Origin: Chitinophaga pinensis DSM 2588
GTDB taxonomy: Bacteria; Bacteroidota; Bacteroidia; Chitinophagales; Chitinophagaceae
NCBI RefSeq assembly: GCF_000024005.1
Contig: NC_013132.1
Coordinates: 6,442,001-6,506,000 of the forward strand
Direction of reading: 5' to 3'
DNA: 64,000 bases
The notes below the pieces were generated by a model. It made no database searches, had not been told where the DNA came from, and worked only from the letters and a program-made list of their open reading frames with translations. The position numbers and the translations under genes are program-made. Below, one piece after another: positions 18,797 to 64,000 of this stretch; position 1 is the first letter of the stretch, and the number at the start of each line of letters is the position of its first letter.

Positions 18797-18820
18797 TGTA
18801 ACCATTAAAACACATGCAAA

Positions 18821-23414: not shown

Positions 23415-23460
23415 TACCGGATAGACGATCGATAGACGATCAGGATGTATATTTAAACAA

Positions 23461-23488: not shown

Positions 23489-23513
23489 TCCTAATATTTT
23501 GCAACAATGCAGT

Positions 23514-24030: not shown

Positions 24031-24771
24031 CTAATTAGCCGGCTGTTTTCTCTTTCCTTTTCTGATGATCTCGAGTTCTCTTTCCGTAGACAGCGACGTT
24101 GCCATTTGCCCGATAAAATCTAACTTACCCATCATCGGCAGAAATCTGCCAAGCCAGTCAGTAAGGACAAGATGATCCCCCAATCTGTCCCCTATAAATT
24201 CTTTTTCTATATGTGTAAAGGGAATCGCTTTTTCGGCATATTCACCCGGATTATAGTTTGTTTTCTGCACGAACTCCTTCAGCTGATCAAATAAGTAAAA
24301 AGAATCTTCACATATCACCTGCATACAGGTTTCCGGAAAATCGTAATGCCGGGAATAAAGGCAGCTCCATCCGGAGTTACGGGACGCGATAAAATTTTGC
24401 AGACGATCTGATAAAACAAAAAAATCAGATTCCAGGTGTATGATTTTTTTATATCCATATTTCCGCGCTATTTCAATTGAAAAAAGGAAGCTTCTCCACC
24501 ATCCGGGGAAGTCGATATAGGATCTGCGGCCCATGCTGGTATTGAACCTGTAAACATTCACTGTGCTGGTCAGCTGATCAGGCAGTTCATTCTCCAGAAT
24601 AGCTGCAAATTCTTCTCCGCCGCTTCCGCCATCATCAATGAGAAAAAGCCTGTCAGCGCCCAGTTGCGTTATGCGCGCGGAATAATAGTCAATCCATCTT
24701 TCATAACGGATAAGATGATGATGTGCGGAATTTTCATTCATACAACTCGTGCAAAAAACAAAAGATTTCAT
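24031..24771 (-). CDS. Glycosyltransferase-like protein (GT-A type), last gene of NRPS operon
   Basis: The 246-residue protein begins MKSFVFCTSCMNENSAHHH and contains LFLIDDGGSGGEEF, VYRFNTSMGRRSYIDFPGW and KIIHLESDFFVLSD. The (L)ESD triplet after a hydrophobic strand resembles the DxD-type metal and nucleotide-sugar site of GT-A enzymes, and the IDDG segment resembles the second strand of that fold. I could not place it in a numbered CAZy family. It lies 12 bp after the preceding gene and ends the operon, so it probably acts on the peptide product or on an associated glycan. The N-terminal CxxC is unusual. The call as a glycosyltransferase is moderate; donor and acceptor unknown. Confidence 0.6.
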   Translation of the reverse strand: MKSFVFCTSCMNENSAHHHLIRYERWIDYYSARITQLGADRLFLIDDGGSGGEEFAAILENELPDQLTSTVNVYRFNTSMGRRSYIDFPGWWRSFLFSIEIARKYGYKKIIHLESDFFVLSDRLQNFIASRNSGWSCLYSRHYDFPETCMQVICEDSFYLFDQLKEFVQKTNYNPGEYAEKAIPFTHIEKEFIGDRLGDHLVLTDWLGRFLPMMGKLDFIGQMATSLSTERELEIIRKGKRKQPAN

Positions 24772-24783
24772 AAACAGTTCGTT

Positions 24784-25950
24784 TTAAGGTTGTGGAGCGA
24801 ATCTGCTCCTGATAAAATCTATCAGCATCTCTGATGAATACTCTCTACAGGGCAGAAGATCTCCTGTATATTTTCTTTCTTCTTCACTTAAATCTCCCAG
24901 CAAAACGGCATCTTTATGACCGTTACGATCTTTTAAAACAAGACACTGAATAAGCGGAGACTTTCCCCACCACTGATCTGCCGTTTCATTATCTCCCTGA
25001 TACACACCTGTGTAGGTAATCATTAAAGGTATTTTTTCTGCTACTGCTGAGGTCCTTGAAAAGTAATTATACATACCGGATGCACAATGCAGAAGTCCCG
25101 TACAGGGTCCTAAAATGAGCGAGGTGCGGTCAGCGCTGAGGATACACAAATCTTTTCTCAATCCCAGTCCGGTTGAAAATATCATTTTACTGAACTGTTC
25201 CTTTGTTAACCATTCCTGATAAAATTCTGCCTTGCCGACACTTCCTTCATCAAAGACCAGCACTTTCGTTTTATGAAGACTTAACAGATAGACCAATACG
25301 TCGAAATAGACGTCTGTTCTCAATAGTTTCTCCTTTTTGGATGCAGTGTCCACGACAACGACGAGGCGTTCATCCTTATCCAGCCCCTTACCCGACAACC
25401 ATTGATTCCCCCATGTTCTCTCCTCCTGAGAAAGATAAATTTCATATGGACGATTGACCATAACGCTGGCGGCATATTCCACCATTTTCTTATTCACAGG
25501 GAATGCTGTCCTCAAATCATCTGTTACCCGTAAAATATAGGCAGTAATGGAAAAAACGGCCAGATCAAGCAGTCCACCCGAAATAAGGGGGCCGTATTTT
25601 TCCTGTAAAAAGTGCATAAAGGCGACTTCATCATAAGTTGCGCACAGCACGACATCTATTTCAGAAAAGTCAATTTCCTCCCAGGTTAAGTTATAAAGAT
25701 GATCTACATGCGGATTATTCTTCAACAGATTTTTATATAATTCCAGGTATTTACTGTTAAGACAGTTAATACTGATCGAGGCATTGGCAAAAAACTGCCT
25801 GCATATTTTCAGCTGATCAAACTTAAGGCAGGTATCCCCTATGAAAAACTCCTGTTCTTCATAAAGAATGAGCACGTTTCTCACCTCTTCAATACGCAGG
25901 TCTTCATTGTACCTGCAGATCTGGCTGAAAGTGTCTACTACATTTTCCAT
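24784..25950 (-). CDS. GT9-like (heptosyltransferase-type) glycosyltransferase
   Basis: The 388-residue protein has a two-domain GT-B appearance. The N-terminal half has strands VRNVLILYEEQEFFIGD and ASISINCLNSKYLELY. The C-terminal half carries ERLVVVVDTASKKEKLLRTD, VLVFDEGS and, most telling, SLILGPCTGLLHCASG, close to the (G)(P/N)D(T/S)G..H.A motif of GT9 heptosyltransferases. Here the usual Asp of that motif is replaced by Cys. GT9 enzymes normally build lipopolysaccharide core, so presence within an NRPS operon is unexpected. The gene lies 23 bp downstream of the GT4-like gene and 12 bp upstream of the next. The fold call is reasonable; activity may have changed. Confidence 0.65.
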   Translation of the reverse strand: MENVVDTFSQICRYNEDLRIEEVRNVLILYEEQEFFIGDTCLKFDQLKICRQFFANASISINCLNSKYLELYKNLLKNNPHVDHLYNLTWEEIDFSEIDVVLCATYDEVAFMHFLQEKYGPLISGGLLDLAVFSITAYILRVTDDLRTAFPVNKKMVEYAASVMVNRPYEIYLSQEERTWGNQWLSGKGLDKDERLVVVVDTASKKEKLLRTDVYFDVLVYLLSLHKTKVLVFDEGSVGKAEFYQEWLTKEQFSKMIFSTGLGLRKDLCILSADRTSLILGPCTGLLHCASGMYNYFSRTSAVAEKIPLMITYTGVYQGDNETADQWWGKSPLIQCLVLKDRNGHKDAVLLGDLSEEERKYTGDLLPCREYSSEMLIDFIRSRFAPQP

Positions 25951-25973
25951 GCTACAGATGATTTACCGGGTAT

Positions 25974-26858
25974 CTATATTCTGTTAATCTCATAGAGGAA
26001 TTTTTCCCGGAAGCTCCTGTCGGCTTCCAGAAAAGAATATCTGTTCCGTGCGCCTATTTCCGGAAGATCTTCCCTTTGCGACAATTTATTTAATACTTCG
26101 ATGATGGAAGACGGCTTCACCGATACTGATGCGCCCAGTCTGTCACAAAAACCACTTGCCTGGTGTATAGGCACCAGAAAATCCGTGGCTATTTCATTCA
26201 TCGGAGGAAAATCGGTGCTGACTACCACTGCCCCGCAGGACCTGGCTTCATTGATACAATGCCCGAAACCCTCTGCCTGAGAGGGATAAATATGAATCAG
26301 GCATTCATTTCTCAGTCTGTTATATTCCTGCTCCGGTAATAACTTTTCATACATGATAACATTATCTCCGCTGGAAGCATACTTTTCGCTTATCAGGTGG
26401 ATCTTAGGCAGTTTGCTGGTCTCCCAGGCTGACACGACAAACTGTGTTCCTTTGGCCTGAGACTTTCCCTGGGAATGAAAATATTCCGGTTTCTTCTCAC
26501 ACTCGATGTAACAGTCAAGAGAGGTAAAGCCTGTATAAGTCACATTGCTGTGGTAAGCACTGAAGATTTTCTGTGCATAAAATGTCTTACAGAAAATAAC
26601 ATCAAACCGGTGCATGAATGGTAACCATCTTTTATAGAACCATTCCTGGTTAGGAATAAGAATATTCTTCCTTCCAAAATATCTCTTATCGACAATCTCA
26701 GTGAAGATAGAGATATCATTATCCTTGTGAAGCGGGACATATTCGTCAATGCTTCTGAAATCCGTTCTTATACTATTCCGGGTCAACAGGTCGACCAGTA
26801 GCTTCTTATCTTTTTCAAGTCCTACTCCATTTTCTCTACCTACTATCGTTACGTGCAT
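25974..26858 (-). CDS. GT4-like glycosyltransferase
   Basis: The 294-residue protein shows the C-terminal nucleotide-sugar-binding half of a GT-B glycosyltransferase. ECLIHIYPSQAEGFGHCINEA is the E-rich motif region of GT4, followed by CGAVVVSTDFPPMNEI. The N-terminal half (VTIVGRENGVGLEKDKKLLV to VIFCKTFYAQKIFSAY) is shorter than usual. Total length is about 60-80 residues shorter than common GT4 enzymes. It is embedded in the operon, 11 bp after the dioxygenase and 23 bp before the GT9-like gene. Retaining sugar transfer to the NRPS product or an associated carrier is the likely role, with donor unknown. Confidence 0.8.
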   Translation of the reverse strand: MHVTIVGRENGVGLEKDKKLLVDLLTRNSIRTDFRSIDEYVPLHKDNDISIFTEIVDKRYFGRKNILIPNQEWFYKRWLPFMHRFDVIFCKTFYAQKIFSAYHSNVTYTGFTSLDCYIECEKKPEYFHSQGKSQAKGTQFVVSAWETSKLPKIHLISEKYASSGDNVIMYEKLLPEQEYNRLRNECLIHIYPSQAEGFGHCINEARSCGAVVVSTDFPPMNEIATDFLVPIHQASGFCDRLGASVSVKPSSIIEVLNKLSQREDLPEIGARNRYSFLEADRSFREKFLYEINRI

Positions 26859-26869
26859 ATTTTTGTTTT

Positions 26870-27739: not shown

Positions 27740-28918
27740 TTAGTTAGGGTATATGGTATTACCTGACTCCAGTTTACGGGCATTGCGTGCGATGCGGCTG
27801 GCAGTCTGTTTTCTGGAAAATTCTCTTACAGCACCCATCCACGCCAGATATTCCACTGACATTTTCACAAAAGGGAATGTCAGTATGGAAAATAACTTTC
27901 CCCTTTCCAGCCCGGATACTTCTTCCGGACCGAGAAACAGCAGGTTAATACACCAGGCGATGGTGATCAGATAGATACCGATTGCCGAAATCAGGAAAAA
28001 CTGGAAACTAATGAGACTTGTCATGACTATCAGGGGTAAGACAGACAACAGGAATAATGTAATGACAATATCCAGTAAAGTCCTGACACCCACTCTTGTA
28101 AACTTGGATATCTGACTGAAATAATACTTACGTTCTTTCGCAAAAGTTTCAAGATAACCCAGGTTCCACCTGACGCGTTGCTTAATCAGTGACCTGAATG
28201 ACAAGGGAGGTCTGGTAAGTGTGAGTATACTTTCTTTGTAGATCGTTTTGTAACCCAGCTTCATGCCTATCAGCGTGGCCTCGCGGTCTTCGCCGCTTCT
28301 GAAACCACTATGTTCCTGATAGATCGCAATAAGAACCTCCCTTTTATAACAGGAACCGGCACCCGGCATGACAGGAACGCTTTGTTCTTTGTGATGGAAT
28401 TTATACAATGTCCGTATCAGTGAATATTCCAGCTGCTGAAATCTGAATATTCTGCCGGCGCCCTCGTAGGGCAGCATCCTGAAATAACAGCCCATCAGCG
28501 AGTCATCTTCCCGCAGTGAGACTGAAATATCTTCCATATCCTTGATGCCGACGATATCGGTATCAAAGTCCGAAAGAATGATGAATTCATGGCTGATGGA
28601 CAAGATTGTCAGAAAAAGAGCACCCACTTTATTCGCATTAGGGGTAATAGATGCTACATATAATCCACCCGGATGACCGGCGAGAAAAGTCTTCATCTTT
28701 TCCAGGCTGTCGTCCGTAGAACCATCATCTATTATAATCACATCTACGTCTTCCTTTAACGCGGCCGCAACATTGTTGAAGTATGATAAGCGATCCATCA
28801 TCTCACAATGGGAGCTTTCATTATAAACCGGGATCAGGAGCGCACTTTTTTTGCCGGCAGCCGGGGCGGAGCTGATCCATTCTAACCTTACCGAACGCTG
28901 TCTTAATGAGTTTAACAT
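27740..28918 (-). CDS. Membrane GT2 glycosyltransferase
   Basis: The 392-residue protein is a GT2 enzyme. The N-terminal GT-A domain has ALLIPVYNES, VIIIDDGSTDDS (first acidic motif), FIILSDFDTDI (DxD), MPGAGSCYKREVL, SGEDREATL (catalytic-base-like ED) and a QRVRW (Q..RW) motif, typical of processive or polyisoprenoid-type GT2 enzymes. Two or three C-terminal membrane segments follow (TLLDIVITLFLLSVLPLIVM and FLISAIGIYLITIAWCI). The enzyme should act at the inner membrane. It sits directly after the second NRPS (gap 11 bp) and before the dioxygenase (no gap). It may transfer a sugar to the peptide, load a lipid-linked donor, or synthesise a short chain. Family call firm, substrate unknown. 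Confidence 0.9.
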   Translation of the reverse strand: MLNSLRQRSVRLEWISSAPAAGKKSALLIPVYNESSHCEMMDRLSYFNNVAAALKEDVDVIIIDDGSTDDSLEKMKTFLAGHPGGLYVASITPNANKVGALFLTILSISHEFIILSDFDTDIVGIKDMEDISVSLREDDSLMGCYFRMLPYEGAGRIFRFQQLEYSLIRTLYKFHHKEQSVPVMPGAGSCYKREVLIAIYQEHSGFRSGEDREATLIGMKLGYKTIYKESILTLTRPPLSFRSLIKQRVRWNLGYLETFAKERKYYFSQISKFTRVGVRTLLDIVITLFLLSVLPLIVMTSLISFQFFLISAIGIYLITIAWCINLLFLGPEEVSGLERGKLFSILTFPFVKMSVEYLAWMGAVREFSRKQTASRIARNARKLESGNTIYPN

Positions 28919-28929
28919 GGTTTAATTAA

Positions 28930-30324
28930 TTACGACTGTGGAGAATTAACATACAGATCATTGGCTATTTTGCTTATAAAAGCGATGTATTCATTTCCTA
29001 AAGTTGTTATTACCGTATCGTCATACAAACTGGTGTCATATTGTATATCCAGCTCAAGTTTGTCGGAAAATCTATAAAACTGCAGTTGTATATCAAAGGG
29101 AAAGATGAAGTCAAGCTCCTTTCTCCTTGGTCCAGGCTTTAATACCTGCTGTATTTCTTTTAGTTCCGCTGCTGGCAGATAATTACCTGTCAGATCTGCA
29201 TACTGCATATTCAGCTGCCAGAATTTTGTTCCGGTAGTCGTAGCCGGCACGACCATCTCTGTCAATACCTCCATCAGGCTACAGGCCCTGTAATGTCTCA
29301 CATCGTCATTCGCCTGCTGTACTTTCTTTACAATATCAGGGAAAAGGTCCTCCTTATTGAAAACGCTGCGTATCAACTGACTTTTCGCATAGCTGCCGAT
29401 CTGATCTTCTGTGCCTATATAATCCCTACCGAAAACATCCGTACCAATAATGATATCACTCACACCTGTCTTGAGGGATATGAGATATTTAAACGCTGCC
29501 TGTAACAATACGAATGTACTTACCGACAATAGCTTTGAACAGCTGCTGATCTGATCTGTCAGTGCGTTATCAAAAGAGAAGCGCAGTACCTCCGCGACTT
29601 TTTGACGCATGGGGCTTTCTCCTGAAATTTTCCTGCCGGGAAGTATAATGCGTGCGGGCAACGATTGATACAGTGACTGCCAATATTGACGATGTGCCTT
29701 ATAGTGTTTTTGCACATAGCTATATTCATGCGCCAGGAATTCTTTAAACTGATATCGCTGTGCCGGTCTGTCTGGCTCCCTGCCCTCAGCGAATGCCTGA
29801 TAGGCAGCATAAAGATCACTTATCAGCACCTCATTGGACCATACATCGTAGATCACATGATGCACTTTGAGCGATATAATATGTTCATGCTCTGCTGTCC
29901 GGCTGACCCGGAACAGGACCAATGGCCCTTCATGAAAGATAAAACTGTGGCTGAAACAGGTAATAAAATCAGTTATTTCTTCATCCCGTGGCAATCCTCT
30001 GAAGTCACGGAATTCAGGTTCAAAAATTGCCGCATCACGGTCTTCCACCCGCATCATATATCTGCCATCAATCTGGTGGAAAGTAGCGCGCAGACTTTCA
30101 TGGCGGGAAATGAGGTAATAGACCGATTTCCTGAAAGCGTCTCCGTCGAAGTCGCCACTGATTACAAAAGCGCTGAAAATGGTACCGTGGTAGAAATCAA
30201 CCGATTTATATACGCTATCGATATTGTCATTGATCCAGTACTCCTGCGTAAAGGTTATCGGATAGTAGTCGGCGTTCCTGTATCTGACAATATCCTTCTT
30301 ATTCACTTTGCCAGGCATGTTATT
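28930..30324 (-). other. NRPS B terminal condensation domain in place of a thioesterase
   Basis: Begins YYPITFTQEYWINDN and has the active site HHVIYDVWS, with Val where HHxxxDG has Gly. It ends about 10 residues before the stop with no following carrier or TE. It could release the chain by intramolecular ester or amide formation, or by coupling to an external amine or alcohol. Confidence 0.7.
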
Positions 30325-33300
30325 ATCTCCTGCTTCAACCTCGGCGATCCTCGCCGCGAATGATTGAATGGTCGGATGCAGGAAAAAGTCCTTCATATCC
30401 AATAACACATTGAATTTTTTGTGTACTGCGCTGATAAGACGCATGGCTTTCAGACTATGTCCACCGAGTTCAAAAAAGTTATCGGTCGTACTGTTTATTT
30501 TCACATGCAGTAAATCTTCCCATATTGACAACAACGTTGCTTCTGTTTCATTTACAGGCGCGAGGTTAGCGACAATATCCATTGAATTTACAGACATGTC
30601 GGCCAATGCTTGTTTATCCAGTTTACCACTTACCGTAAGTGGTAAGTCAGTTAGTCTGGTCAGGCGGACAGGTATCATATAGGCCGGCAGTCTGAGTTTG
30701 AGGAAAGAGATAATGTCCTGCTGCTCTATTGGCTGAGTACTTACAATGTAGGCGTGCAGAAGTTTATCGCCCTCTTCAACCTCCAGGGCAATTATCCTTG
30801 CCTGTTCTATCCCCGGCATTTCCAGCAATACACTTTCAATCTCGCCTGGTTCTATCCGGAAACCTCTTACTTTGATCTGTTCATCGGACCTTCCCAGCAT
30901 TTCGACATTACCATCATATAACCAGCGCCCTATATCTCCTGTCCTGTATATCCTTCCTCCATCAACTGTACTGAACGGATTTTTGATAAACTTTTCTCTG
31001 GTCAGCTCCGGCCTGTTCAGATAACCACGGGCAACCTGCGCACCTCCGATATATATTTCACCGGCTATACCCAGCGGCACTGGCCGGAGATGTTTATCGA
31101 GAATATAGATCTGAACATTATCCAATGGTTTACCTATTGTGATATGACCATTGCTGTGAACAGGCGATGCGGATAAGGTGGCTGCAACGGTATTTTCAGT
31201 GGGACCGTATGCATTTATCAGGCGTATTCCCTTTTGTTGTACTATATATGCCTGTTGCCTGCTTAGCATTTCACCCGCAGACACCACTGTTTCAAGGCTC
31301 AGTGTTCTGTCCGTAATGCTGGATTGATAACTCGGTGGGATCGTCAGCATATTAACCTTGTTCTCTTCCAACACTTCACACAACTTTGCCGGATTGACAA
31401 GCAATTCTGCCGGTCCCAGAATCAGCCGTCCACCGTTCATGAGCGTGCAAAATATCTCATAACAGGATGCATCAAATCCGATAGAAGCAAACTGAAAGGC
31501 GATCGTTCGCTGCCCGATACCTAACAGTGAAGCCTGGTTATGTACAAGATTCACTACTCCCCTATGTTCTATCAGCACACCTTTAGGCAATCCTGTCGAG
31601 CCGGAAGTATAAATCACATATGCCAGGTGATGGGGACGAAGTGAGATTTCCGGAGGCGTAACAGGAAATCCGGCCAGCATAGCATTGGCATTATCAGATG
31701 ATACCGTATGAAGAATCCCCGCATTTTTCAACAACTCACTGCCGGCAGCATCAGTAATGGCGACATTACTCTGGATATCAGTCAACATATTCATAATCCT
31801 TCTGGCAGGATAGGCTGTATCGATCGGTACATATGCAGCACCCGCCTTAAGTATCCCCAGAATCCCTACTATCATATCTATCGAACGCCTGATATACACC
31901 GGTACAAGCGTATCCTCCTTCACCCCGAGTGTTCTCAGATAATGCGCCAGGCGATTACTACGTATATCGAGCTCCTGATAACTCAATTGCTCGTTTCCAA
32001 ACACCAATGCGATATTGTCAGGAATCGCAGCCACCTGTTCTTCAAACAGTTCAACCAATGTCTTATCTGGATACACGGCTGTTTGCGCATTAAACGTCTT
32101 CAGTAATTGCTTTTCCTCTTCTTCGCCGGCCATCTTTAATAAGCTCAGCGGAGTTGTTGTATCATCCAGCACAGACGACATCAATTGCTCAAAATGCTGC
32201 AACAAACGATCTATTGTGTCTTCATGATACAAATCTGTACAGTAAACTGCATTTAGCTGCAATGCATCCTGCTGTTGAGTAATATGCATCGTCAGATCAA
32301 ATTGAGAGGTGATCTGACTGGTGTTTTCTTCTGTGACTCTGCCTTCTCCAAGTGACAGATCTTCTGATGCCGGTGTATTCAGGAGCACAAGCATTACCTG
32401 GAATACCGGTGTACGGCTCAGGTCACGGGGTATACCCAACGCCTCCACCACTTTCTCAAAAGGAACATCCTGGTGCGCAAAAGCATTCAGTGTATTTTCC
32501 TTCACGCTTTGCAGGAAACTGGTAAAAGACGGATCACCGGCAAGATCACTGCGCAGCACCAGGGTATTGACAAAAAATCCGATCAGACCTTCTGTTTCCT
32601 GCTGATGACGGCCAGCAACAGGCGTCCCTATGCAAAGGTCTGTCTGACCACTATAGCGATATAGCAATACTTTAAATATGGCCTCCAGCAACATAAACAA
32701 CGTCACTCCTTCCTGATGGCATAAGGCTTCCAGCCGACTGGTCAGACTTTTGCCTATCCTTCTGCTTCTTACCCCACCACGGATACTTTGTTCGGCAGGC
32801 CTGATATAGTCGGTCGGCAATTCAAGCGCCTGGACTCCGGAGAGTCGTTCAGACCAGTAAGACAAACGATCTGATAATATTTCTCCTGAGAGATAAGCAC
32901 GTTGCCATATGGCGTAATCTGCGTACTGTACACTCAACGGCGCCAGCGAAGCAACACGCCCCTCACGGATGCTATTATACAGTGTGATCAGTTCCCTGAC
33001 CAATAAACTGATAGACCATCCATCAAAGGCAATATGATGTATCACTACGATGAGCACATGTGCTGCCGGTGATTGACGGACAAGACTGACGCGCAACATA
33101 TAATCTGCAGAGAGATCAAAAGGATCAAGTGTGCGGGATGCTGTAAATGAAGTCAGATCGTGTCCTTCACTTATCAATTTATCCTCTTCGGCATATTCCA
33201 TCTGCCAGTCCGCCGCAGATAATATTTCCTGATATCCAACACCCTCTTCTTCCCTGATCACGGTCCGCAACACCTCATGTCGCTCAAGGATAGAACGGAA

Positions 33301-36300
33301 AGAACTTGACAGGGCATCCTGGTCCAGCTCCCCTTCCAGGCGGAAGACCCACGGCATGTGGTATTGCAGACTGCCCTGAAGACGGTCGATGAACCATAAG
33401 CGCTCCTGTGCAAAGGATAAAGGAATACGACCAGGACGCTCCACTACCTGTAAGGTGGGCAGCGTTGGCACAGAGGACAGTGCAGACAACCGGGTAGCAA
33501 GCCCTTCTATCGTCGGGTTATCAAAGATCTCACGGATACCTACTTCACATGATAACGCTTTACGGATGGCAGATATCACCCGGATCGCCAGCAAGGAGTG
33601 ACCTCCCAGTTCAAAGAAATTGTCATTTATGCCCAGACCAGATACATCCAGCAGCTCTTCCCAGATGGCTGCCAGCTGACGCTCCAGCTCTGTACGCGGT
33701 GCAATATGGCTATCGACAGTCGTTATTGCCACATCCAGCAACGATAACTGCACCCGATCTACCTTTCCGTTCCTGGTAAGCGGTAATTGCTCCAGCACGA
33801 CCACATGAGCTGGTACCATATGCTCCGGCAAATGACTGCGCAGATATGATAACAGTTCCGCCTTATCCGGTGTACCTGTCACATACGCGATCAGCTGTTT
33901 ATTGCCCGCCGCATCTTCATGCACCACTACCACACAGGCTGATACACCAGCACCTGCTGACAATACCACTTCTATTTCTCCCGGTTCTATGCGATAACCG
34001 CGGATCTTCACCTGGTTGTCGGAACGACCAAGGAAAGCAATTGTGCCATCTGGCAGCCAGCGCCCAAGATCTCCTGTACGATAAAGACGACTTCCGGGTA
34101 ATCCACTGAACGGATCTGCTATAAATTTCTCTGCCGTCTGTTTTATATCATGATGGTAACCATCACTCACACCGGCTCCCCCTACATACAATTCTCCACG
34201 GACCCCTATACCACATAAACTACCATATTCATCCAGGATGTAAGCCGTACGGTGATCCAGCGGACGGCCTATCGGTATAGGACGGTCCGATGCTACTTCC
34301 TCTATCCGGTAGCTCAATGAAAACGTCGTATTCTCTGTTGGGCCATATCCGTTGATGATGGTCAGATCCGGATAAGCAGATCTCACTTTCGCGATGTGTA
34401 TGATTGATAATTTATCCCCACCTACAAGGATTGTCTTTAATCCTTTAAATAAATCCAGGTCTGCCTCTACCAGCTGATTGAACCAGCCGGCGGTGAACCA
34501 CATCATCGTTATGCTATGACGCCGGATTGCTGACTTCAGTAATATTACATCCAAAAGCACCTCTTCACTACACAATACCAATCGTCCGCCATTCAGCAGC
34601 ATGCCCCAGTATTCGAATGTAGACGCGTCAAAGGATGGAGAACCTGTTGACAATATTGTTTCTTCTTCCGAAAGGCTTACATAACCCACATTTCTGACAA
34701 GACTTGTCACATTACGGTGTGTTACCTTCACTCCTTTTGGAACGCCGGTTGAACCGGAGGTGTACATTACATAAGCGATCGAATCGGCCCGCTGTACAAC
34801 TGGCAAACCCGTCACGGCATAATCGGATTGCAGCAACGGTAATAGCTGGTCTTCCGTCAGTACGATGCGCAGCTCACTGTCTGAAAACATATAGGCACGA
34901 CGTTCTTCCGGATAGGATGGGTCTACCGGCACATAAACGCCGCCCGCCTTCACGATGCCCAGCATACCTATGATCAGCAAGGCACTTCGCTCCATGCTCA
35001 GACCCACCGCCTCACCAGACTGTACACCCTGTGATAACAGATAATGTCCGACCTGGTTACTACGTTCGTCCAGTTCCCGATAACTCATCCGCTCTTCTTC
35101 AAATTCAAGGGCTATCGCATCCGGATGCGCACATACCTGTGCCGAAAACAGGGTTATTAATGTCTCCTCAGCGTCGTATGAAGCGCTCCGGTCATTAAAG
35201 GTATCCAACAGCAACACTGATTCCTCCTCACCCAGCATATTCAACTGCGCTACCGGTGTGGTAATATCTGACAATACAGCTTCCAGTAACTCCTCATAAT
35301 GATGCAGCAAACCATGCATCGTCTCCGCACGGTAAAGATCACTTTTATAAACAAGGCTCAGGTGAAGGCCATAGGACGATTCTGTTACATTCAGCATCAG
35401 CTCAAATTCTGAGGTAATGTTACCTGTAGATAGTCCATGTAATTGCAGATCACCCAGGTCCAGCGCACCACTTTCAGGTGCATTCTGTAACACCAGTACA
35501 GCCTGAAATAAAGCATTCCGGCTTCGGTCACGGGACAGGCCCAGCACTTCTACTACCTTTTCAAATGGTACGTCCTGATGTGCATAGGCTGCCAGGGTGG
35601 TTTCCTTTACCTGCTGAAGGAAACTCACAAATGAAGGATTCCCTTCCAGATCACTACGCAGGGCTAACATGTTAACAAAAAAGCCGATCAGGCCTTCTAC
35701 TTCCTGCTGATGACGACCTGCAATAGAGCTGCCTACACAGATGTCGGTCTGACCACTGTAACGGTATAACAATACCTTAAACACGCCCTGTAATAACATA
35801 AACAGGGTTACGCCCTCCCGCTGGCACAACGCATCCAGCCGGTCAGCCTGTAAACGGCTGATCGTTTTAGATACCATTCCGCCACGAATGCTCTGTTCCG
35901 CAGGGCGTACATAGTCCGTCGGCAGTTCCAGCACAGGTACGCCGGCAAGATGTGTCGCCCAGTAAGAAAGACGGTCCGATAAGGTATCACCTGACAACCA
36001 GGATCGCTGCCAGATGGCATAATCTGCATATTGCACAGGTAAAACCGGTAATACGGGTTGCGCTCCTTCCCGGATACTGCGGTAAAGCTCTACCAGTTCT
36101 CCTACCAGCAGACCAATTGACCATCCGTCAAAAGCAATATGGTGTAATAATATGATTAGTACGTGTGATGTCGGTGACTGATGGACCAGCGTAACACGCA
36201 GCATATAATCCGAAGAAAGGTCGAATGAATGAAGAACTCGCGATTGTATTAATGCGGATATGGAAGATGGATCTGCTGATATGGTATATTCCATCTGCCA

Positions 36301-39300
36301 GTTAGCCGCAGATAATATTTCCTGATATCCAACACCCTCTTCTTCCCTGATCACGGTCCGCAACACCTCATGTCGCTCAAGGATAGAACGGAAAGAACTT
36401 GACAGGGCATCCCGGTCCAGCTCCCCTTCCAGGCGGAAGACCCACGGCATGTGGTATTGCAGACTGCCCTGAAGACGGTCGATGAACCATAAGCGCTCCT
36501 GTGCAAAGGATAAAGGAATACGACCAGGACGCTCCACTACCTGTAAGGCGGGCAGCGTTGGCACAGAGGACAGTGCAGACAACCGGGTAGCAAGCCCTTC
36601 TATCGTCGGGTTATCAAAGATCTCACGGATACCTACTTCACATGATAACGCTTTACGGATGGCAGATATCACCCGGATCGCCAGCAAGGAGTGACCTCCC
36701 AGTTCAAAGAAATTGTCATTTATGCCCAGACCAGATACATCCAGCAGCTCTTCCCAGATGGCTGCCAGCTGACGCTCCAACTCTGTACGCGGTGCAATAT
36801 GACTATCACCAGTCGTTATTGCCACATCCAGCAACGATAACTGCACCCGATCTACCTTTCCGTTCCTGGTCAGCGGTAATTGCTCCAGCACGACCACATG
36901 AGCCGGTACCATATGCTCCGGCAAATGACTGCGCAGATATGATAACAGTTCCGCCTTATCCGGTGTACCTGTCACATACGCGATCAGCTGTTTATTGCCC
37001 GCCGCATCTTCATGCACCACTACCACACAGGCTGATACACCAGCACCTGCTGACAATACCACTTCTATTTCTCCCGGTTCTATGCGATAACCGCGGATCT
37101 TCACCTGGTTGTCGGAACGACCAAGAAAAGCAATTGTGCCATCTGGCAGCCAGCGCCCAAGATCTCCTGTACGATAAAGACGACTTCCGGGTAATCCACT
37201 GAACGGATCTGCTATAAATTTCTCTGCCGTCTGTTTTATATCATGATGGTAACCATCACTCACACCGGCTCCCCCTACATACAATTCTCCACGGACCCCT
37301 ATACCACATAAACTACCATATTCATCCAGGATGTAAGCCGTACGGTGATCCAGCGGACGGCCTATCGGTATAGGACGGTCCGATGCTACTTCCTCTATCC
37401 GGTAGCTCAATGAAAACGTCGTATTCTCTGTTGGGCCATATCCGTTGATGATGGTCAGATCCGGATAAGCAGATCTCACTTTCGCGATGTGTATGATTGA
37501 TAATTTATCCCCACCTACAAGGATTGTCTTTAATCCTTTAAATAAATCCAAGTCTGCCTCTACCAGCTGATTGAACCAGCCGGCGGTGAACCACATCATC
37601 GTTATGCTATGACGCCGGATTGCTGACTTCAGTAATATTACATCCAAAAGCACCTCTTCACTACACAATACCAATCGTCCGCCATTCAGCAGCATGCCCC
37701 AGTATTCGAATGTAGACGCGTCAAAGGATGGAGAACCTGTTGACAATATTGTTTCTTCTTCCGAAAGGCTTACATAACCCACATTTCTGACAAGACTTGT
37801 CACATTACGGTGTGTTACCTTCACTCCTTTTGGAACGCCGGTTGAACCGGAGGTGTACATTACATAAGCGATCGAATCGGCCCGCTGTACAACTGGCAAA
37901 CCCGTCACGGCATAATCGGACTGCAGCAACGGTAATAGCTGGTCTTCCGTCAGTACGATGCGCAGCTCACTGTCTGAAAACATATAGGCACGACGTTCTT
38001 CCGGATAGGATGGGTCTACCGGCACATAAACGCCGCCCGCCTTCACGATGCCCAGCATACCTATGATCAGCAAGGCACTTCGCTCCATGCTCAGACCCAC
38101 CGCCTCACCAGACTGTACACCCTGTGATAACAGATAATGTCCGACCTGGTTACTACGTTCGTCCAGTTCCCGATAACTCATCCGCTCTTCTTCAAATTCA
38201 AGGGCTATTGCATCCGGATGCGCACATACCTGTGCCGAAAACAGGGTTATTAATGTCTCCTCAGCGTCGTATGAAGCGCTCCGGTCATTAAAGGTATCCA
38301 ACAGCAACACTGATTCCTCCTCACCCAGCATATTCAACTGCGCTACCGGTGTGGTAATATCTGACAATACAGCTTCCAGTAACTCCTCATAATGATGCAG
38401 CAAACCATGCATCGTCTCCGCACGGTAAAGATCACTTTTATAAACAAGGCTCAGGTGAAGGCCATAGGATGATTCTGTTACATTCAGCATTAGCTCAAAT
38501 TCTGAGGTAATGTTACCTGTAGATAGTCCATGTAATTGCAGATCACCCAGGTCCAGCGCACCACTTTCAGGTGCATTCTGTAACACCAGTACGGCCTGGA
38601 ATAAAGCATTCCGGCTTCGGTCACGGGACAGGCCCAGCACTTCTACTACCTTTTCAAATGGTACGTCCTGATGTGCATAGGCTGCCAGGGTGGTTTCCTT
38701 TACCTGCTGAAGGAAACTCACAAATGAAGGATTCCCTTCCAGATCACTACGCAGGGCTAACATGTTAACAAAAAAGCCGATCAGGCCTTCTACTTCCTGC
38801 TGATGACGACCTGCAATAGAGCTGCCTACACAGATGTCGGTCTGACCACTGTAACGGTATAACAATACCTTAAACACGCCCTGTAATAACATAAACAGGG
38901 TTACGCCCTCCCGCTGGCACAACGCATCCAGCCGGTCAGCCTGTAAACGGCTGATCGTTTTAGATACCATTCCGCCACGAATGCTCTGTTCCGCAGGGCG
39001 TACATAGTCCGTCGGCAGTTCCAGCACAGGTACGCCGGCAAGATGTGTCGCCCAGTAAGAAAGACGGTCCGATAAGGTATCACCTGACAACCAGGATCGC
39101 TGCCAGATGGCATAATCCGCATATTGCACAGGTAAAACCGGTAATACGGGTTGCGCTCCTTCCCGGATACTGCGGTAAAGCTCTACCAGTTCTCCTACCA
39201 GCAGACCGATTGACCATCCGTCAAAAGCAATATGGTGTAATAATATGATTAGTACGTGTGATGTCGGTGACTGATGGACCAGCGTAACACGCAGCATATA

Positions 39301-42300
39301 ATCTGAAGAAAGGTCGAATGGATGTAGTGTCTGTGACGCGATAAAGGAAGAGAGATCCTCCCCTCCCACGAGCAATGCCGTTTCCTCTTCATATCGGAGA
39401 CACCAGCCGGAGACAGGCAACAATTCCTGAAATCCAACACCTTCTTCTTCTCTGATCACTGTCCGCAACACCTCATGTCGCTGAAGAATTGCCCGGAAGG
39501 ATGCTTCCAATGCATCTTTATCCAGTTCTCCTTCCAGGCGGAAAGCCGAAGGCATGTGATACTGTAGACTACCTTGCAGCCGATCAATAAACCATAAACG
39601 CTCCTGTGAGAAAGATAAGGGAACACGGGCAGGACGTTCTGTCATTTGTAATGCAGGAAGGACAGCTGTTGAAGATAGTTTTGCCAGACTTCCGGCCAGA
39701 CCTTCTATTGTCGGATTATCAAATATCTCACGGATGCCGACCTCACAGGACAGTTCCTTACGAATGGCAGATATCACACGGATGGCCAGCAATGAGTGTC
39801 CTCCTGATTCGAAAAAATTATCGTTAACACCTATACCTGATATTCCTAACAGTTCTTCCCATATAGTGGTCAGTTTTGTTTCCAGCTCATTGCGCGGAGC
39901 AACATAGGCATTCGATGTTTCCAGCTGAATGTCCAGCAAAGACAATTGCCGGCGATCCACTTTACCATTAGGCGTCAGTGGTAATTCTTCCAGCGGCACC
40001 AATACTGTCGGTACCATATAGTCCGGCAACGTATTCTTCAATGCAGTTAGCAATGCCGGCTTATCTAATTCTCCATCGGGAACGAGATACGCGATCAGTT
40101 GTTTATCACCTTCACCCGTGGCCTTTAAGATGACAGCTACCTGTTTCACACCTGTACAGGACAACATCACGTTCTCTATCTCACCCGGTTCGATACGATA
40201 ACCACGGACCTTCACCTGTTCATCGGCCCGACCGATGAATTCTATCTCTCCGTCTGAACGCCAGCGACCTATATCTCCTGTCCGGTACCAAACACCTCCA
40301 TCTGGGAACCTCACGTACTTAACAGATGTCAAGGCAGGATTATTAATATAGCCTAACGATACTCCTGCACCTCCAATGTATAACTCTCCCCGCACGCCAA
40401 CCGGAACAGCACGACCATGATCATCCAAAATACGGATCTCCGTATTACAAAGCGGATGACCTATCGGTATATCTACTCCATCTATTTCATCTATCTCATA
40501 ACAACTTGCATATACTGTCGTCTCGGTTGGACCATACACATGTAGTAACTTACCTTTTCCTAACACAGACAACGCGGACCGCACATGACCCACTGACACC
40601 TTTTCTCCCCCAAACAGCATTTTTCGTAATAAAGCCAGACCTGACACATCATAATCTACGAAGGCATTGAACAGCGCCGTTGTCAGAAAACTCACACTCA
40701 CTCCTTCCTTACGGATCAGGTAAGACAGCGCACCTGCATCGGCAGCAGCTGGTTCCGCTATCAGTAATAAACGGGCACCATGTAACAAGCTACTATAGAT
40801 CTCATATGTGGAGCCGTCAAACGCATAGTTAGACCACTGTAAGACACAGTCTTCCCCGTGTATAGCGATCGGACCTTTGTCATATACCAGTTTCAAGATA
40901 TTACGCTGGCTCACAAGAATTCCTTTCGGATGACCGGATGTGCCTGAGGTGTACATCACATAAGCGCCCTCATCTACAGACCGCGATATCGCCGGTCGCT
41001 GAACGGGATAGTCCACGCAGTCTGCTACTTTTATCAGCTCCATCCCTGTCAGTCCTGACAAAGACAACAACTCCTCTTCGGTATACACCAGATGTGACAA
41101 ACCCGCATCCTGACTGATATAATGAAGACGTGAAGGGGGATAATCAATATTCAACGGCACATATACACCACCCGCTTTTAAAATACCAAACATCCCGATG
41201 ATCATATCAAAACCACGGTAGGATAACAAACCTACCTGTACACCAGGTGTGACGCCAGTTGCAATTAGTTTATGGGCCAGCTGATTACTACGCACTTCCA
41301 GTGTTTCATAGCTTAATGTCTGCTCACCATATATCAGGGCTATAGACGATGTTTTTATCGATGCCTGTCTATCAAACAGTTCCATCAAGGTCTGGTCTGA
41401 AGGATATGGCGCTTCAGTTCTATTGAAGGTTTGTAACAACATTTCTTCTTCTGCAGCGCCCAGCATATTCAATTGCGATACCGGTGTGGTAATATCTGAC
41501 AATACAGCCTCCAGTAATTCCTCGTAATGATGCAGCAAACCATGCATCGTCTCTGCACGGTAAAGATCACTTTTGTATACAAGACTCAGGTGAAGACCAT
41601 AAGACGATTCTGTTACATTCAGCATCAGCTCATATTCTGAGGTGATATTGCCTGTGGATAACCCATGCAACTGCAAGTCTCCCAGATCCAGCGCACCACT
41701 TTCAGGCGCATTCTGTAATATCAGCACGGCCTGGAATAAAGCATTCCGGCTTCGGTCGCGGGACAGGCCCAGCACTTCTACTACCTTTTCAAATGGTACG
41801 TCCTGATGTGCATAGGCTGCCAGGGTGGTTTCCTTTACCTGTTGAAGGAAACTGGCAAATGAAGGGTTCCCTTCCAGATCACTACGCAGGGCAAGCATGT
41901 TGACAAAAAAACCGATCAGGCCTTCTACTTCCTGCTGATGACGACCTGCAATAGAGCTACCTATACAGATGTCGGTCTGACCACTGTAACGGTATAACAA
42001 TACCTTAAACACGCCCTGTAATAACATAAACAGGGTTACACCCTCCCGTTGACACAACGCATCCAGTCGGTCAGCCTGCAAACGGCTGATCGTTTTAGAT
42101 ACCATTCCGCCACGAATACTCTGCTCCAGGGGACGTACATAGTCCGTTGGCAATTCCAGCACGGGTACGCCGGCAAGATGTGTCGCCCAGTAAGAAAGAC
42201 GGTCCGATAAGGTATCACCTGACAACCAGGATCGCTGCCAGATGGCATAATCCGCATATTGTACAGGTAAAACCGGCAATACAGGACGCCCGCCTTCCCG

Positions 42301-45300
42301 GATGCTGCGGTATAATTCTACGAGCTCTCCTACAAGCAAACCGATTGACCATCCGTCAAAAGCGATATGATGCAATAAGATGATTAGTACGTGTGATGTC
42401 GGTGATTGATGGACCAGCGTAACACGCAGCATATAATCCGATGAAAGGTTGAATGGGTGTTCTATCTGTGATGCAATAAAAGAAGACAGGTCACCATTTC
42501 CTGTGAGCAATGTGGATTCTTCTTCATATCGGAGATTCCAGCCAGTAGTTGGTAATAACTCCTGATAACCGACCCCTTCTTCTTCCCGGATCACTGTTCG
42601 TAATACTTCATGCCGTTTTAAAATGGACCTGAAAGAAACCTCCAGCGCATGACAATCCAGACTTCCTTCCATACGGAATACCCAGGGCATATGATATTGT
42701 TCACTCCCCTGTAGCCGGTCGATAAACCACAAACGTTCCTGTGCGAAAGACAATGGAACACGTTTCGGGCGTTCGACGGCACGTAAAACAGGTACTGAAG
42801 ATGTTGACGACATACCTGCTATCCGCTCTCCCAGTGAGGCAATATCCGGATGATCAAAAATGTCTCTTATACCAATTTCACAGGCCAGTTCTTTCCGAAT
42901 CGCAGATACCACGCGAATAGCTAATAAGGAATGCCCTCCAAGCTCGAAAAAATTATCATAAATACTGATATTGGACAAACCCAACAACTCACTCCATATT
43001 CTGGCCAGGACCGTCTCATTACCATTACGCGGGGCAGTATATACAGTAGTTTCATCCTTGTCTGGCTGCATCAATGCCAGTAACTTACGGTTTACCTTTC
43101 CATTAGCAGTCAATGGTAATACGTCGAGCGCAATTATTTGTCCTGGCAACATATAGGAGGGCAGAAAACCTGCAGCCTGTGACAATATTGTTTCTTTATC
43201 AAACGGCCCGGAAACTACCACATATGCGACCAGCTGCTTATTTTCTTTATCATCCTCTCTGAGCACTACCGCGGCTTCCTTTACAACTGACAGTTGACAT
43301 AGTACGCTTTCAATTTCCCCAGGCTCTATGCGATAGCCCCTCAATTTGAGCTGGTCATCACATCTGCCGATAAACTCAATATTTCCATCCGGCAACCATT
43401 TTGCCAGGTCACCGGTTTTATATATCCTCTCTTCCGGCATATTATCGAAGGGATTGATAACAAATTTCTCGACTGTCAGGGGCTGCTGATTCAGATATCC
43501 CCTTGCGACCTGATCACCACCCAACCATAATTCTCCTGTAACGCCCGGTGGTACCAGGCGGCCGGAGTTGTCCACGATGTAGGCATTAATATTGGTCAGC
43601 GGCTTGCCGATTGGCAACGATGATTGAAAGAAAGGGGTTCCTTTCTTCAGATGATACATTATCGAAGTAACCGTTGTTTCTGTAGGTCCATACTCATTGT
43701 AAAAATCTGCATAGGCACTCCAGCGCCTTGCCAACTCTGCACTGCAACTATCACCTCCCGCAATAACCCGGCGTAAGCCTCCATATGAACCTGCCCTGAT
43801 CGTACTCAGAAAGCCCGGAGTGGCGTGTAAATGAGTAACACGCCGGTTCAACAGAAAACGTTCAAACTTTTCACTATCCAGGCGGTCTGTCGCGGCTAAA
43901 AGGATCAACGTCGCCCCATTCAGTAAAGCAAGAAAAATCTGCTCTACCGACGCGTCAAAACTGTAATTGGAAAACTGGAGAATCTTTTCCTGTTGATCAA
44001 TACCGAATTTTTTCGCCTGACCTGTAATAAGTTGTACTACAGACTGATGCGCTACCATAACTCCTTTAGGACGTCCCGTAGATCCGGAGGTATATATCAC
44101 ATAACACAGATCATCTGCAGAGAGGGCTACAGCAGGGCGTGAAGAAGGCATAACCGACATCAGCATATCTTGACTATCAGTATATAGTATCTCAACATCA
44201 GCGCCTGCGTTCTCTTTTATCAGTTCTTCGTAAACCGTAGAGGAAATAACTGCACGGCACTTACAATCTGCCAGTATATATTGTAGTCTATCCACAGGAC
44301 AGTTATGTTCCAGTGGCACATACGCGGCTCCCGATTTTAATATACCAAGGATACTTACAATCATATCCGGAGAATTCTCCAGATATATTGCCACCATACT
44401 ATCAACGCCTATTCCTTTTACCCTGAGATAGTTTGCAAGCTGGTTACTACGCTCCTCAAGCTGTTGATATGACAAGGTAGTATCTTCAAATACCAACGCC
44501 GCTGCTTCGGGATTTCTGTCCACCTGCTCTTCAAATAGTTCTACCAGCGTTCTGTGCTTATTATCATCAAAAGACCGTGCATTAAACACATGCAACAGCT
44601 GATATTTCTCCCTTTCCGTCAAGATCTGAATGTCATCTACCTTACCATGCACTTTTGTGAGTATCTGCTGCAAGACATAATCAAAATGATCACGTATCTG
44701 TAATGCATATTCACTCCTAAGCAACGCAGCATTATATTTAAAATGAATATGGATTTCATCACTGGCATTAATACCAATACTAAATGGGTAGTTATCCCGT
44801 TCGAAAGAACTGACATTTTCCACTTGCAGCGACCATTTCCTGGAAGCGACAACCTTACTGACAGGATAATTCTGATATACCAGGATATTATCAAAAAGTT
44901 CTCCTCTGATCTGTGCCCACGATTGAATATCATTTAACCCGTTGTATTGAAACGTGGTCGTGTTTAACTGTGATTGATGCAGCTGTCTTAACCATTCAGT
45001 AATAAGCTGGTCTTTCTTTAATATTGAGCGAAGTGGCAGCGTATTAATATAAAGCCCTACACGGCGTTCAATATTGTCAAGATCCGCAGGCCGGCCTGAT
45101 ACAATGACACCATACAAAATGTCATCTTTACCGGTATACTGATGCAGCAAATATGACCATATGCCCTGCATGATGGTATTAGGAGTGATCCTCTGCTGTT
45201 GTGCGTACTTTTCTACAACAGCGGTCATCTCCTTATCCAATTTCAGCGTAACCGATTTATATATACCACCGCCTCTATTCCTTTCAGCAGCAGCACTGAT

Positions 45301-46146: not shown

Positions 46147-46180
46147 CTTGGTAATTTTAGCATTTATGTGAGGTTACAAG

Positions 46181-59700: not shown

Positions 59701-62700
59701 AATCATACTCTTCTATCGGCATTTCTACATCACGGTAAACAACCTGTACCATTATCCTGAATACATCATGGTAAAAACTGCTACGCAGTATGCTATGCCG
59801 CGATAACAATATCTGCCATACCTGTCTGAACAGGGAGACATTCACATTATCCAGCACACTATTGAACTGCGTGATGTAAGTACCACTGGCCGACGCATTG
59901 TATAAGCTATGGAACAGCATTCCCTGCTGAAGGCCACTTAAGCGGTAGATGCTTTCCAGCTGATCGCCACGACGACGGCCTCCTTCCTGCCCTTCTATAA
60001 AGGCATCTAACTCCTCATAGCTCACATCTTCTCCCAGACCATAGTCTGAGGGCGTGTACGAGGACTTAACTCCAGAGACACAATGGCCGATCAGTAAAGA
60101 CAGGTCTTCTACATAATTATCACAAAGCATTCGTATCGTCTGCTCTTCAAAATGATGACGGCTGTAACTCCAGCTGATCCAAAGCTCTCCGCCGTACACC
60201 ATACTGTTCACCACCATCAGCCCTCCCGAAGGCTGGTTGGCGCCAGCAGCAGGACCATGCGGTTCATCCGATGGGCTGAACCAGTCGTGACTGCTCTTTA
60301 CACTGTCTAGCTGACCCAGATAGTTAAATACGATATCCCAGGGACTATTGCCTGAAAACGAGGGATCACCATTCAGGTACTTCAACACACCATACCCAAT
60401 CCCTTTGTCAGGTACACGACGTAGCTGTTCCTTGGTACTGATCAGCCAATCCCTGGCCCCGTCAGCAGCAGGACGGGTGAGCTGAACAGGATAAAGGCTC
60501 GTAAACCAACCTACAGTACGGCTCAGGTCTATACCTTCATCCAGCTGTTCACGACCATGACCTTCCAGACCTATCACAACATCCTCTCTGCCCGTCCAGC
60601 CGCTCAATGTCCGCGACAGACCGCCCAGTAATACATCGTTGATCTCCGTATGATAAACACGGGGTACTTCCTGTAATAGCTGACGGGTAAGATCAGCCGG
60701 CATTTTTACTGAATAGCTATACATATCGCTCATCAGCACAGGCCCCTGATGCAATTTATCTGTAGGCAAAGGAAGGTACGACTGCTGAACGCTCTTCCAC
60801 CAGGAATGCTGGTCCTGTAAACGCGCACTGCTTCCATACGCTTTTAATGTCTCGTGCCAGCTCCGGTAAGAACTGCTTTTAAGACCCATATCGACATTAT
60901 GTCCATTATTGTAAGCTGACAATAACTGATCAAAATCTTCCAGGATAATACGCCAGGATACGCCATCTATCCCCAGATGATGCACGACCAGCAACAACCG
61001 GTTAGCGGACTCCGATGCCGGGGTTAGTATCAGTGCCGCCCTTACCAAGATACCACTGGTGATATCCAGACTACCCTGTACATACGTTCCTATCTCCTGA
61101 ATCTGCGCCAATAAACCGGCGCTATCTGTTATATGCTGCAAATCATGCACTTCCAACTTCGGTATATAATCTCCATATTCCTGTTCCCATATGCCATCCA
61201 TGAACTTATAACGAAGCCGCAATGCGTCATGTCTGTTTACAAGCTGCTGTAATGCAGACTCCTGGAACTCTCTGCTAAGCCTTTTATCAATGTGCAGTAG
61301 CACATCCTGGTTATAATGTGAAATATCTGCCGGCATACTTTCCAGGTACCAGGATTGAATCGGCAGCAGGCCGGCACTACCTGACAGTATACCCTGTTCT
61401 GTTGAATGATGTCTATAATCGCTCACCCCTGATAACATTGCAGCAAGTGCCGCCACATGTTGTTGTGTAAAAAGGTCTTTGGGCTTTAGACCATATCCTA
61501 ATTTTCTTGCTCTGCTGACAACCTGGATAGTAATAATTGAATCTCCTCCTAACTCAAAAAAATTATCATATATACCTACATGCGGCACTCCAAGCAGCTC
61601 TTCCCATATACTGACCAGATGCCGCTCAGTCTCATTTCGTGGCGCAACATATCCAGCACGTTGAATGGTGTTGACATTGATTGCGAGGAGTTGCTTTCGG
61701 TCAATCTTCCCGTTTGAGGTTAACGGAATATGTTCCAGCTCAACAAGCACCGCTGGTATCATATAATCTGGCAGACGGTTAGCCGCATACTGGAGTATGT
61801 GAGATTTATCGGACATCCCGGATACAACGATATAGGCTACCAACATTTTATGCCCGGAGTCATCCGTCTTCATTAATACGACGCTCCGTAAAACGCCCGG
61901 AGCCTCGCTTAATACTGACTCCACCTCACCGAGTTCAATGCGGAAACCACGAATTTTCACCTGGTCATCAGCGCGGCCCAAATATTCGATATTCCCGTCT
62001 GCCATCCAACGTGCGAGATCACCACTCTTATACATCCTCGCTTCAGGCAACTTACTAAACGGATCCTTCACAAATTTCCCGGATGTAAGCTCCCTGCGAT
62101 TGAGATATCCACGACTTACACCGGCCCCTCCCACATAAAGTTCACCCGGAATACCGATACCACATAACCCTCCCCATTCATCCAGAATATAACATTGTAA
62201 AGTTGGGATAGCAGCTCCAATGTTACTTACCTTTTCCTGTACCTCTTTCTGGCCTATTTCCTTATAAGTTACATGCACTGTTGTTTCAGTGATACCATAC
62301 ATATTGATCATCCGGCAGGATGGAAAGTGTGTCATCCATTTTTCCAGACGCGCAGGATGGAGAGCTTCGCCGCCAAATATCACGTATCTTAGCTGTAACG
62401 CTGGCATAGTATCAAGTACAATATCCTGAAGCGTATAAAAAGCCCCCGGTGTCTGATTCAATATAGTTACCTTCTCTCTGGACAATAATGAAACAAACAG
62501 CTCAGTATCCCTGGAAACTTCCTTACTTACGATCACTACACGGCCTCCATTTAATATCGCTCCAAATAATTCCCAGACAGAAAAATCGAAGCAAAACGAA
62601 TGGAATAACGTCCACACGTCTGATGAACCAAAATCATACAAAGCTTTGTCAGTTTTAAACAGCCGTACAACATTTCTATGCTCAACCAACACTCCTTTGG

Positions 62701-64000: not shown

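Follow-up and report, generated by a model that had tools for sequence, protein, structure and literature searches.

A 64,000-nucleotide stretch of the Chitinophaga pinensis DSM 2588 genome (bases 6,442,001-6,506,000 of a single contig of 9,127,347 bases), here called the window, carries giant nonribosomal peptide synthetase (NRPS) genes next to genes for four glycosyltransferases (GTs), which raises the question of whether the GTs act on the peptide. Extended coordinates carry the window numbering on past 64000 into the next 94 kb, and the features discussed are collected in Table 1.

Table 1. Features of the C. pinensis locus and selected relatives
Feature	Coordinates or place	Strand	Evidence and remarks
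RND efflux trio (HlyD-type adaptor, AcrB-type pump, outer-membrane channel)	17711..23414	+	PF16576, PF00873, PF02321
Penicillinase_R/BlaI-type repressor	23514..23912	-	PF03965 3.1e-23; 118 bp after last GT gene
GT-A fold glycosyltransferase-like protein, 246 aa	24031..24771	-	Last gene of tailoring block; predicted structure
GT9-like glycosyltransferase, 388 aa, NRPS-associated family	24784..25950	-	Predicted model
GT4-like glycosyltransferase, 294 aa	25974..26858	-	PF00534 3.5e-7, PF13692 1.1e-6; EX7E at residue 196
PhyH-family Fe(II)/2-oxoglutarate dioxygenase, 289 aa	26870..27739	-	PF05721 7.9e-28; HxD (HQD) at 114
GT2 membrane glycosyltransferase, 392 aa, PgaC/NodC-like	27740..28918	-	PF13632 1e-9
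NRPS N5, 5738 aa	28930..46146	-	5 x C-A-T plus terminal C domain, no TE recognized; predicted residues: (no clear code), Ile, Val, Val, aromatic
NRPS N4, 6202 aa	46181..64000 in window, gene to 64789	-	4 x C-A-T-E; predicted residues: D-Thr, D-Asn, D-Asn, D-(no clear code)
NRPS N3, 7170 aa		-	7 A domains; predicted residues: Ile, Ser, aromatic, Ser, Asn, (no clear code), Asn
NRPS N2, 9175 aa		-	6 A domains; predicted residues: Leu, D-Asp, D-Val, D-Ser, D-Ser, D-(no clear code)
CmlA-type diiron beta-hydroxylase	Between TE and N2	-	PF18456 1.7e-92; HNHQDH at 303
Type II thioesterase (TE)	Between exporter and CmlA	-	PF00975 3.1e-37
ABC exporter, 549 aa	Between N1 and TE	-	TIGR01194 (cyclic-peptide export subfamily) 264 bits, just below cut-off 286.2
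NRPS N1, 2753 aa	First gene of operon	-	FAAL-T-C-A-T-C-A-T; predicted residues: two, without clear code match
UpxY-family NusG paralog	127729-128241 extended (L014:9729-10241)	Divergent	NF033644 122.7 bits, cut-off 100
Triple-fused GT9-like genes of relatives	L023:8361-11708 and L028:8433-11807		

The putative operon and its assembly line

Seven minus-strand open reading frames lie between 24031 and 64000, separated by 12, 23, 11, 0, 11, and 34 bp, and genes on the same strand run on to 126264, giving a run of 13 genes over about 102 kb. The order of transcription is N1, ABC exporter, type II thioesterase, CmlA, N2, N3, N4, N5, and then GT2, PhyH, GT4, GT9-like, and GT-A. With one strand and gaps of 0 to 34 bp, the GTs may be cotranscribed with the NRPS genes. 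The tight spacing of the seven genes is thus as the initial annotation described it, as are the nine NRPS modules in the window, which correspond to nine A domains (five in 28930-46146 and four in 46181-64789). The further modules and starter that it expected to the right were found there, in the form of a FAAL-like starter and three more NRPSs, accompanied by the exporter, the type II thioesterase, and the CmlA hydroxylase. Its picture of two giant NRPSs holds for the window, but the full line comprises 24 amino-acid modules and a putative fatty-acyl-loading domain distributed over five NRPSs.

Pfam positions give the C and E domains in order together with 24 amino-acid A domains and 25 T domains. 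The four NRPSs after N1 contribute another 22 A domains. They also carry nine E domains, which a lower Pfam score and a motif of their own set apart from C domains; these E domains follow modules 2 to 6 of N2 and all four modules of N4. The first A-like domain of N1 holds the best stretch (3-548) of the match to the fatty acyl-AMP ligase model PRK09192, to which the whole protein scores 461 bits over five stretches, below the curated cut-off of 600. This domain is just 19 to 24% identical to the other A domains of the line and may start the line with a fatty acid. At the other end, the domain scan recognized no TE at the terminus of N5. The protein closes with a C domain (motif HHVIYDVWS, 170.9 bits), which would release the chain by cyclization or onto an amine.

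The specificities of the A domains were predicted from signatures read by eye from the aligned domains and compared with known codes. The signatures for Thr (DFWNIGMVH), Leu (DAWFLGNVV), Val (DAFWLGGTF), Ser (DVWHFSLVD/E), and Asn (DATKIGEVG) resemble the known codes for these residues, and the remaining assignments are weaker. The predicted peptide would contain several Ser, Asn, Thr, Asp, Val, Ile, and Leu residues, with nine residues in the D configuration.

Several A domains are near copies of one another (86 to 100% identity). A search for repeats of at least 800 bp and at least 95% identity retrieved thirteen DNA repeat pairs in the NRPS genes (24031-126264), ranging from 1.3 to 4.3 kb at 95 to 99% identity, the longest being 4,338 bp. 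These pairs may be read as a trace of modules that were recently duplicated or underwent gene conversion, and near-identical repeats of up to 4.3 kb could also conceal an assembly error. Together with the junction of N2 and N3, where N2 closes with a C domain carrying the motif YHIVLDGWS (YHxxxDG) and N3 starts with one half of such a domain, they would fit a line that is partly broken and does not make the full 24-mer. The NRPS frames are nevertheless open, without internal stops; the terminal C domain of N2 is nearly full length and keeps the second His; its YH variant also occurs in an internal C domain of N4; and the truncated start of N3 may be a linker remnant. A broken line is, in our view, quite improbable.

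Predicted tailoring enzymes and a proposed pathway

The GT2, GT4-like, and PhyH assignments made in the initial annotation are backed by Pfam, whereas the proteins encoded at 24784 and 24031, which it called GT9-like and GT-A-like, match no Pfam family at an E value of 0.001; their folds could nonetheless be placed by predicted models. The single dioxygenase that it foresaw is present as the PhyH protein, but a second, CmlA-type hydroxylase had to be added, and it is this one that is common to related clusters. Both the CmlA_N domain and the HxHxDH metal motif are found in the CmlA protein. For the PhyH protein, the nearest NCBIfam model is that of ectoine hydroxylase (TIGR02408), and the score of 164 bits against a cut-off of 336.5 indicates that it is not that equivalog.

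The best NCBIfam rows for the GT2 are PgaC_IcaA and others, all far below cut-off. The protein contains the motifs DDGS, DFD, GED, and QRVRW (QxxRW) and hydrophobic segments at 281-299 and 302-320. The predicted model of the 24031 protein has a pLDDT of 93.4, and its Foldseek matches are the GT-A enzymes 2p72, BoGT6a, and glycogenin, with E values of 2e-6 to 1e-4 and a TM score of about 0.5. Residues DD and ESD are invariant in this family among 35 aligned sequences. The 24784 protein is assigned a GT9 fold from its predicted model. PF01075 (GT9) gave no match to it at E values up to 10 with HMMER filters on, and a sequence search of solved structures with query proteins A1 and A2 returned chance-level rows only. 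The donor motif of its family is GPCTG (in longer form GPCTGLxHC), with a Cys at the position where GT9 enzymes are known to keep an Asp.

The enzyme classes and the domain order are read from the sequence, whereas what the enzymes act on, the order in which they do so, the way the chain is released, and any addition of sugars are inferred. The reading we consider probable is that the 13-gene operon directs the synthesis and export of a lipopeptide some 24 residues long, which is first hydroxylated and later glycosylated. A fatty acid would be activated and loaded by the FAAL, and the chain would be extended by the 24 modules. CmlA would beta-hydroxylate a carrier-bound residue and PhyH would hydroxylate a second site, with the terminal C domain then freeing the chain. 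Three GTs without a clear membrane anchor (GT9-like, GT4-like, and GT-A) and the one membrane GT (GT2) would put sugars on side-chain hydroxyls or beta-hydroxyls, and the ABC exporter, perhaps with the RND trio, would carry the product out. No sugar-nucleotide biosynthesis gene was recognized among the scanned genes, which counts against a glycosylated lipopeptide.

Glycosylation can also be transient, as in some macrolides, where it confers self-resistance. The several GTs and the exporter of the operon would suit a sugar that protects the cell from within and is taken off on export, but no glycoside hydrolase was recognized among the scanned genes of the run and its flanks, and we regard such a transient role as highly improbable.

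Glycosyltransferase genes in related genomes

Each of the five small proteins was searched in 79 Chitinophaga genomes, that of C. pinensis included, at E-value thresholds of 0.001, 1e-40, or 1e-10 depending on protein and run, and loci were fetched with up to about 10 kb on each side. The GT9-like protein occurs in 18 of the 79 genomes; apart from the gene of the window, 14 genomes supply 16 strong loci, and five further loci are weak; all 21 were fetched. NRPS A or C domains are present in the stretch at 14 of the 16 strong loci (the exceptions being L019, where a C domain lies about 20.7 kb off on the contig, and L020) and at one of the five weak loci. The weak loci, and the GT4 relatives with none of four, serve as a contrast to the strong set. 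As background, the share of the genome no more than 10 kb from a C domain is 2.6% in C. pinensis; for the 14 relatives, a rough estimate from candidate counts, in which each C domain was taken to span 4.6 kb and every six to make one cluster, has a mean of 8.4% and a maximum of 26%. The binomial P value for 14 of 16 is 1e-12 at a background of 10% and 6e-10 at 16%, values that overstate the case because the GT9 loci share ancestry.

Nine of the 16 strong loci have, within the stretch, a TE, exporter, or CmlA gene like those of the window operon. CmlA itself occurs at only five (L018, L023, L024, L027, and L028), and a partnership between GT9 and CmlA is therefore not general. Two genomes (G045 and G050) encode triple-fused GT9-like proteins of 1116 and 1125 aa, which adjoin CmlA, exporter, TE, and NRPS genes.

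A named scan with one peptide pattern retrieved 17 GT9 loci, nine of them already in the genus set, from genomes that include Puia, Paraflavitalea, Fulvivirga, Chryseolinea, and a Sphingobacterium MAG. A or C domains are near four of the eight others (L039, L046, L048, and L050); L036, L042, and L047 have a TE with an exporter, one of the three also a CmlA, and L045 has an exporter-like match only. When 396 genomes were sampled evenly from the order, a GT9 at E 1e-30 was found in two only, C. pinensis itself and one Chitinophaga with a weak-type homologue. The C. pinensis genome has three PF01075 matches elsewhere, so that the 24784 protein is not needed to explain lipopolysaccharide core synthesis. 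A housekeeping lipopolysaccharide heptosyltransferase was set aside on this account and on that of a family that follows NRPS genes. We propose tentatively that the GT9-like enzyme may represent an undescribed class of NRPS-tailoring GT, a repurposed lipopolysaccharide-heptosyltransferase fold that Bacteroidota would have recruited repeatedly to add sugars to hydroxylated residues in giant lipopeptides; the fused three-copy versions could possibly place several sugars on one peptide.

The neighborhoods of the other tailoring enzymes are more varied. Relatives of the GT2 occur in five other genomes, with a condensation-domain ORF in the stretch at all five loci. At L060 the GT2 gene begins about 30 bp after an NRPS gene; at L061, L062, and L063 the sole C domain in view stands alone, which counts against the association. 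A stand-alone condensation-domain protein near a PIG-L type deacetylase was observed in clusters with a GT2 relative (L060:16032-18210 and L061:5890-8985). Amide formation on an amino sugar is a possible function of this trio and is left as an idea because PIG-L was seen only at these two loci and not in the window operon. PhyH has five other relatives, three of them beside NRPS genes; the two nearest (59% identity; L055 and L056) are not, which counts against the proposed pathway. No NRPS domain was found near the GT4 relatives at any of four loci (L051-L054), which again counts against the pathway, and the GT4 of the window could therefore belong elsewhere. One of these loci (L051), scanned with Pfam, contains LicD-like, cupin/JmjC, subtilase, and ABC transporter genes and a remote GT9 homologue. 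The GT-A protein has relatives at two other loci, one beside CmlA and NRPS genes and the other (L033:6786-10327) next to an ABC exporter of the C39-peptidase type, an arrangement like that of bacteriocin loci.

No other genome of the genus has all four GTs, and the one that has three (G076) carries them at separate places. Four GTs forming a conserved locus without NRPS genes, which the initial annotation named as the finding that would speak against it, were not seen in the 78 other Chitinophaga genomes at the thresholds used. Its single tight run of NRPS, GT, and dioxygenase genes stands, but the GTs are not one conserved set, and a conserved four-GT tailoring cassette is ruled out by the scatter of relatives over genomes. 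These sharply different neighborhoods, and those of the two GT-A relatives, would suit an arrangement in which only the GT9-like enzyme and the GT2 act on the peptide, the GT4 and GT-A enzymes being passengers or acting on other molecules. We hold this to be somewhat unlikely, given that the GT4 and GT-A genes sit within the same tight run, with gaps of 11 to 23 bp.

The GTs might instead alter a surface glycan, lipopolysaccharide or another, and so shield the cell from its own lipopeptide, leaving the peptide without sugar. Against this, GT9-like genes track NRPS clusters across genomes, often with TE, exporter, or CmlA genes, and the 24784 family has diverged from PF01075 beyond Pfam recognition and has Cys in the place of the Asp of GT9 enzymes. 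For it speak the lipopolysaccharide-heptosyltransferase fold of GT9, the membrane nature of the PgaC/NodC-type GT2, the GT4 relatives in loci without NRPS genes, and the chitinopeptins, characterized Chitinophaga lipopeptides whose article (PMC9248904) describes them, in its main text, without sugars. On balance we judge it unlikely and retain the glycosylated lipopeptide as the preferred reading.

Clusters like that of C. pinensis, with the order FAAL-NRPS, exporter, TE, CmlA, giant NRPSs, and with a GT9-like gene, recur in C. oryziterrae (L041 with L078) and in the MAG Chitinophaga BIN2 (L044 with L075-L077). Identities to C. pinensis are 44 and 43%, respectively, for the FAAL-NRPS against N1, 59 and 55% for the exporter, 58 and 57% for the TE, and 78 and 72% for CmlA. 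In both relatives the GT9-like gene lies with a LuxR-type regulator at the 5' end, whereas that of C. pinensis is at the 3' end; the remaining genes of the C. pinensis GT block were not seen in either, both contigs ending inside the cluster. A maximum-likelihood tree places the window GT9 outside the supported group formed by the GT9s of C. oryziterrae and BIN2 (L026 and L030), its own placement being weak, and vertical inheritance of the GT9 with the core is unsupported by this tree. Separate recruitment of one enzyme kind into one cluster family would be the simplest reading.

Regulation and comparison with known systems

A gene for a UpxY-family NusG paralog lies divergently upstream of the operon, with a LuxR-type regulator between it and N1, and its product may hold RNA polymerase processive over 102 kb. 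The genome contains five UpxY genes over the cut-off, three of them near the 5' ends of its three large carrier-domain clusters: besides the one described here, one lies about 30 bp before the first gene of another NRPS cluster (L079), and another sits some 8 kb ahead of an assembly-line gene that lies on the edge of a cluster at 6.70-6.77 Mb (L080). This carrier-domain-rich cluster is presumably the elansolid-type PKS named for the C. pinensis strain (PMC9248904). UpxY homologues are also present in seven other fetched loci (L030/L044, L033, L045, and L060-L063). Articles on such antiterminators associate UpxY with Bacteroidetes and with capsule operons, whereas LoaP and TaA are associated with operons for antibiotics (PMC12691694, PMC7593976). 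The C. pinensis locus is like the LoaP/TaA systems described there in having a NusG paralog beside a very long biosynthetic operon and differs in that its paralog belongs to the UpxY family (NF033644). The UpxY link suggests that Bacteroidota employ antiterminators of the capsule type to transcribe giant assembly-line operons, a part taken elsewhere by LoaP and TaA.

At the 3' end, the BlaI-type gene may belong to the same transcript as the operon. A hairpin follows it at 23460-23489 (a consensus scan gave 6 sites against 4.9 in shuffles), and a scan for promoters gave sites below the shuffle mean and was uninformative. A BlaR1-type M56 peptidase gene (128304-129785, extended coordinates) was observed near the operon start, 104 kb from the BlaI-type gene and on the opposite strand to it. 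The convergent RND trio possibly serves export or self-protection.

If the proposed pathway is true, Chitinophaga and its relatives make a family of very long peptides that are hydroxylated and bear both a lipid tail and sugars. Standard domain labels would miss glycosylation in such clusters because the GT9-like enzyme matches no Pfam family, and its motif GPCTGLxHC offers a simple handle for finding them. Which sugar donor is used by a GT9 enzyme that has Cys in this motif can be tested directly.

Occidiofungin, the hassallidins, herbicolin, ramoplanin, and mannopeptimycin are NRPS lipopeptides with sugars added by cluster-encoded GTs; they come from phyla other than that of C. pinensis, and none of these five systems is known to have a GT9-fold enzyme. 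The GT9 heptosyltransferases WaaC and WaaF and the protein heptosyltransferase TibC are 11 to 14% identical to the 24784 protein, which differs from them in its donor-site motif, in lacking a PF01075 match, and in its NRPS neighborhood. The sugar-bearing monobactams of Flexibacter (formadicins and SQ 28,332) are glycosylated Bacteroidota peptides, and a claim that no such peptide exists would therefore be too broad. Full-text searches of openly accessible papers, aimed at NRPS products of C. pinensis, at clusters for glycosylated lipopeptides, and at GT9 or heptosyltransferase enzymes associated with an NRPS, gave no Bacteroidota report among the matches listed.

The closest described Chitinophaga products are the chitinopeptins, and the most interesting part of the C. 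pinensis cluster is the link between GT9 and NRPS. Chitinopeptins are made by Chitinophaga eiseniae and C. flava and have 14 to 15 residues; the words "glycosyl" and "sugar" are absent from the main text on them (PMC9248904). The C. pinensis cluster, like theirs, has NRPS genes, an ABC transporter, and genes for CmlA-like hydroxylation, and its predicted product would likewise be a lipopeptide with beta-hydroxylated residues. The chitinopeptin clusters have a C-starter and, in the figure legend, a TE (PMC9248904), whereas the C. pinensis cluster has 24 A domains, a FAAL-like start, a terminal C domain, and four GTs.
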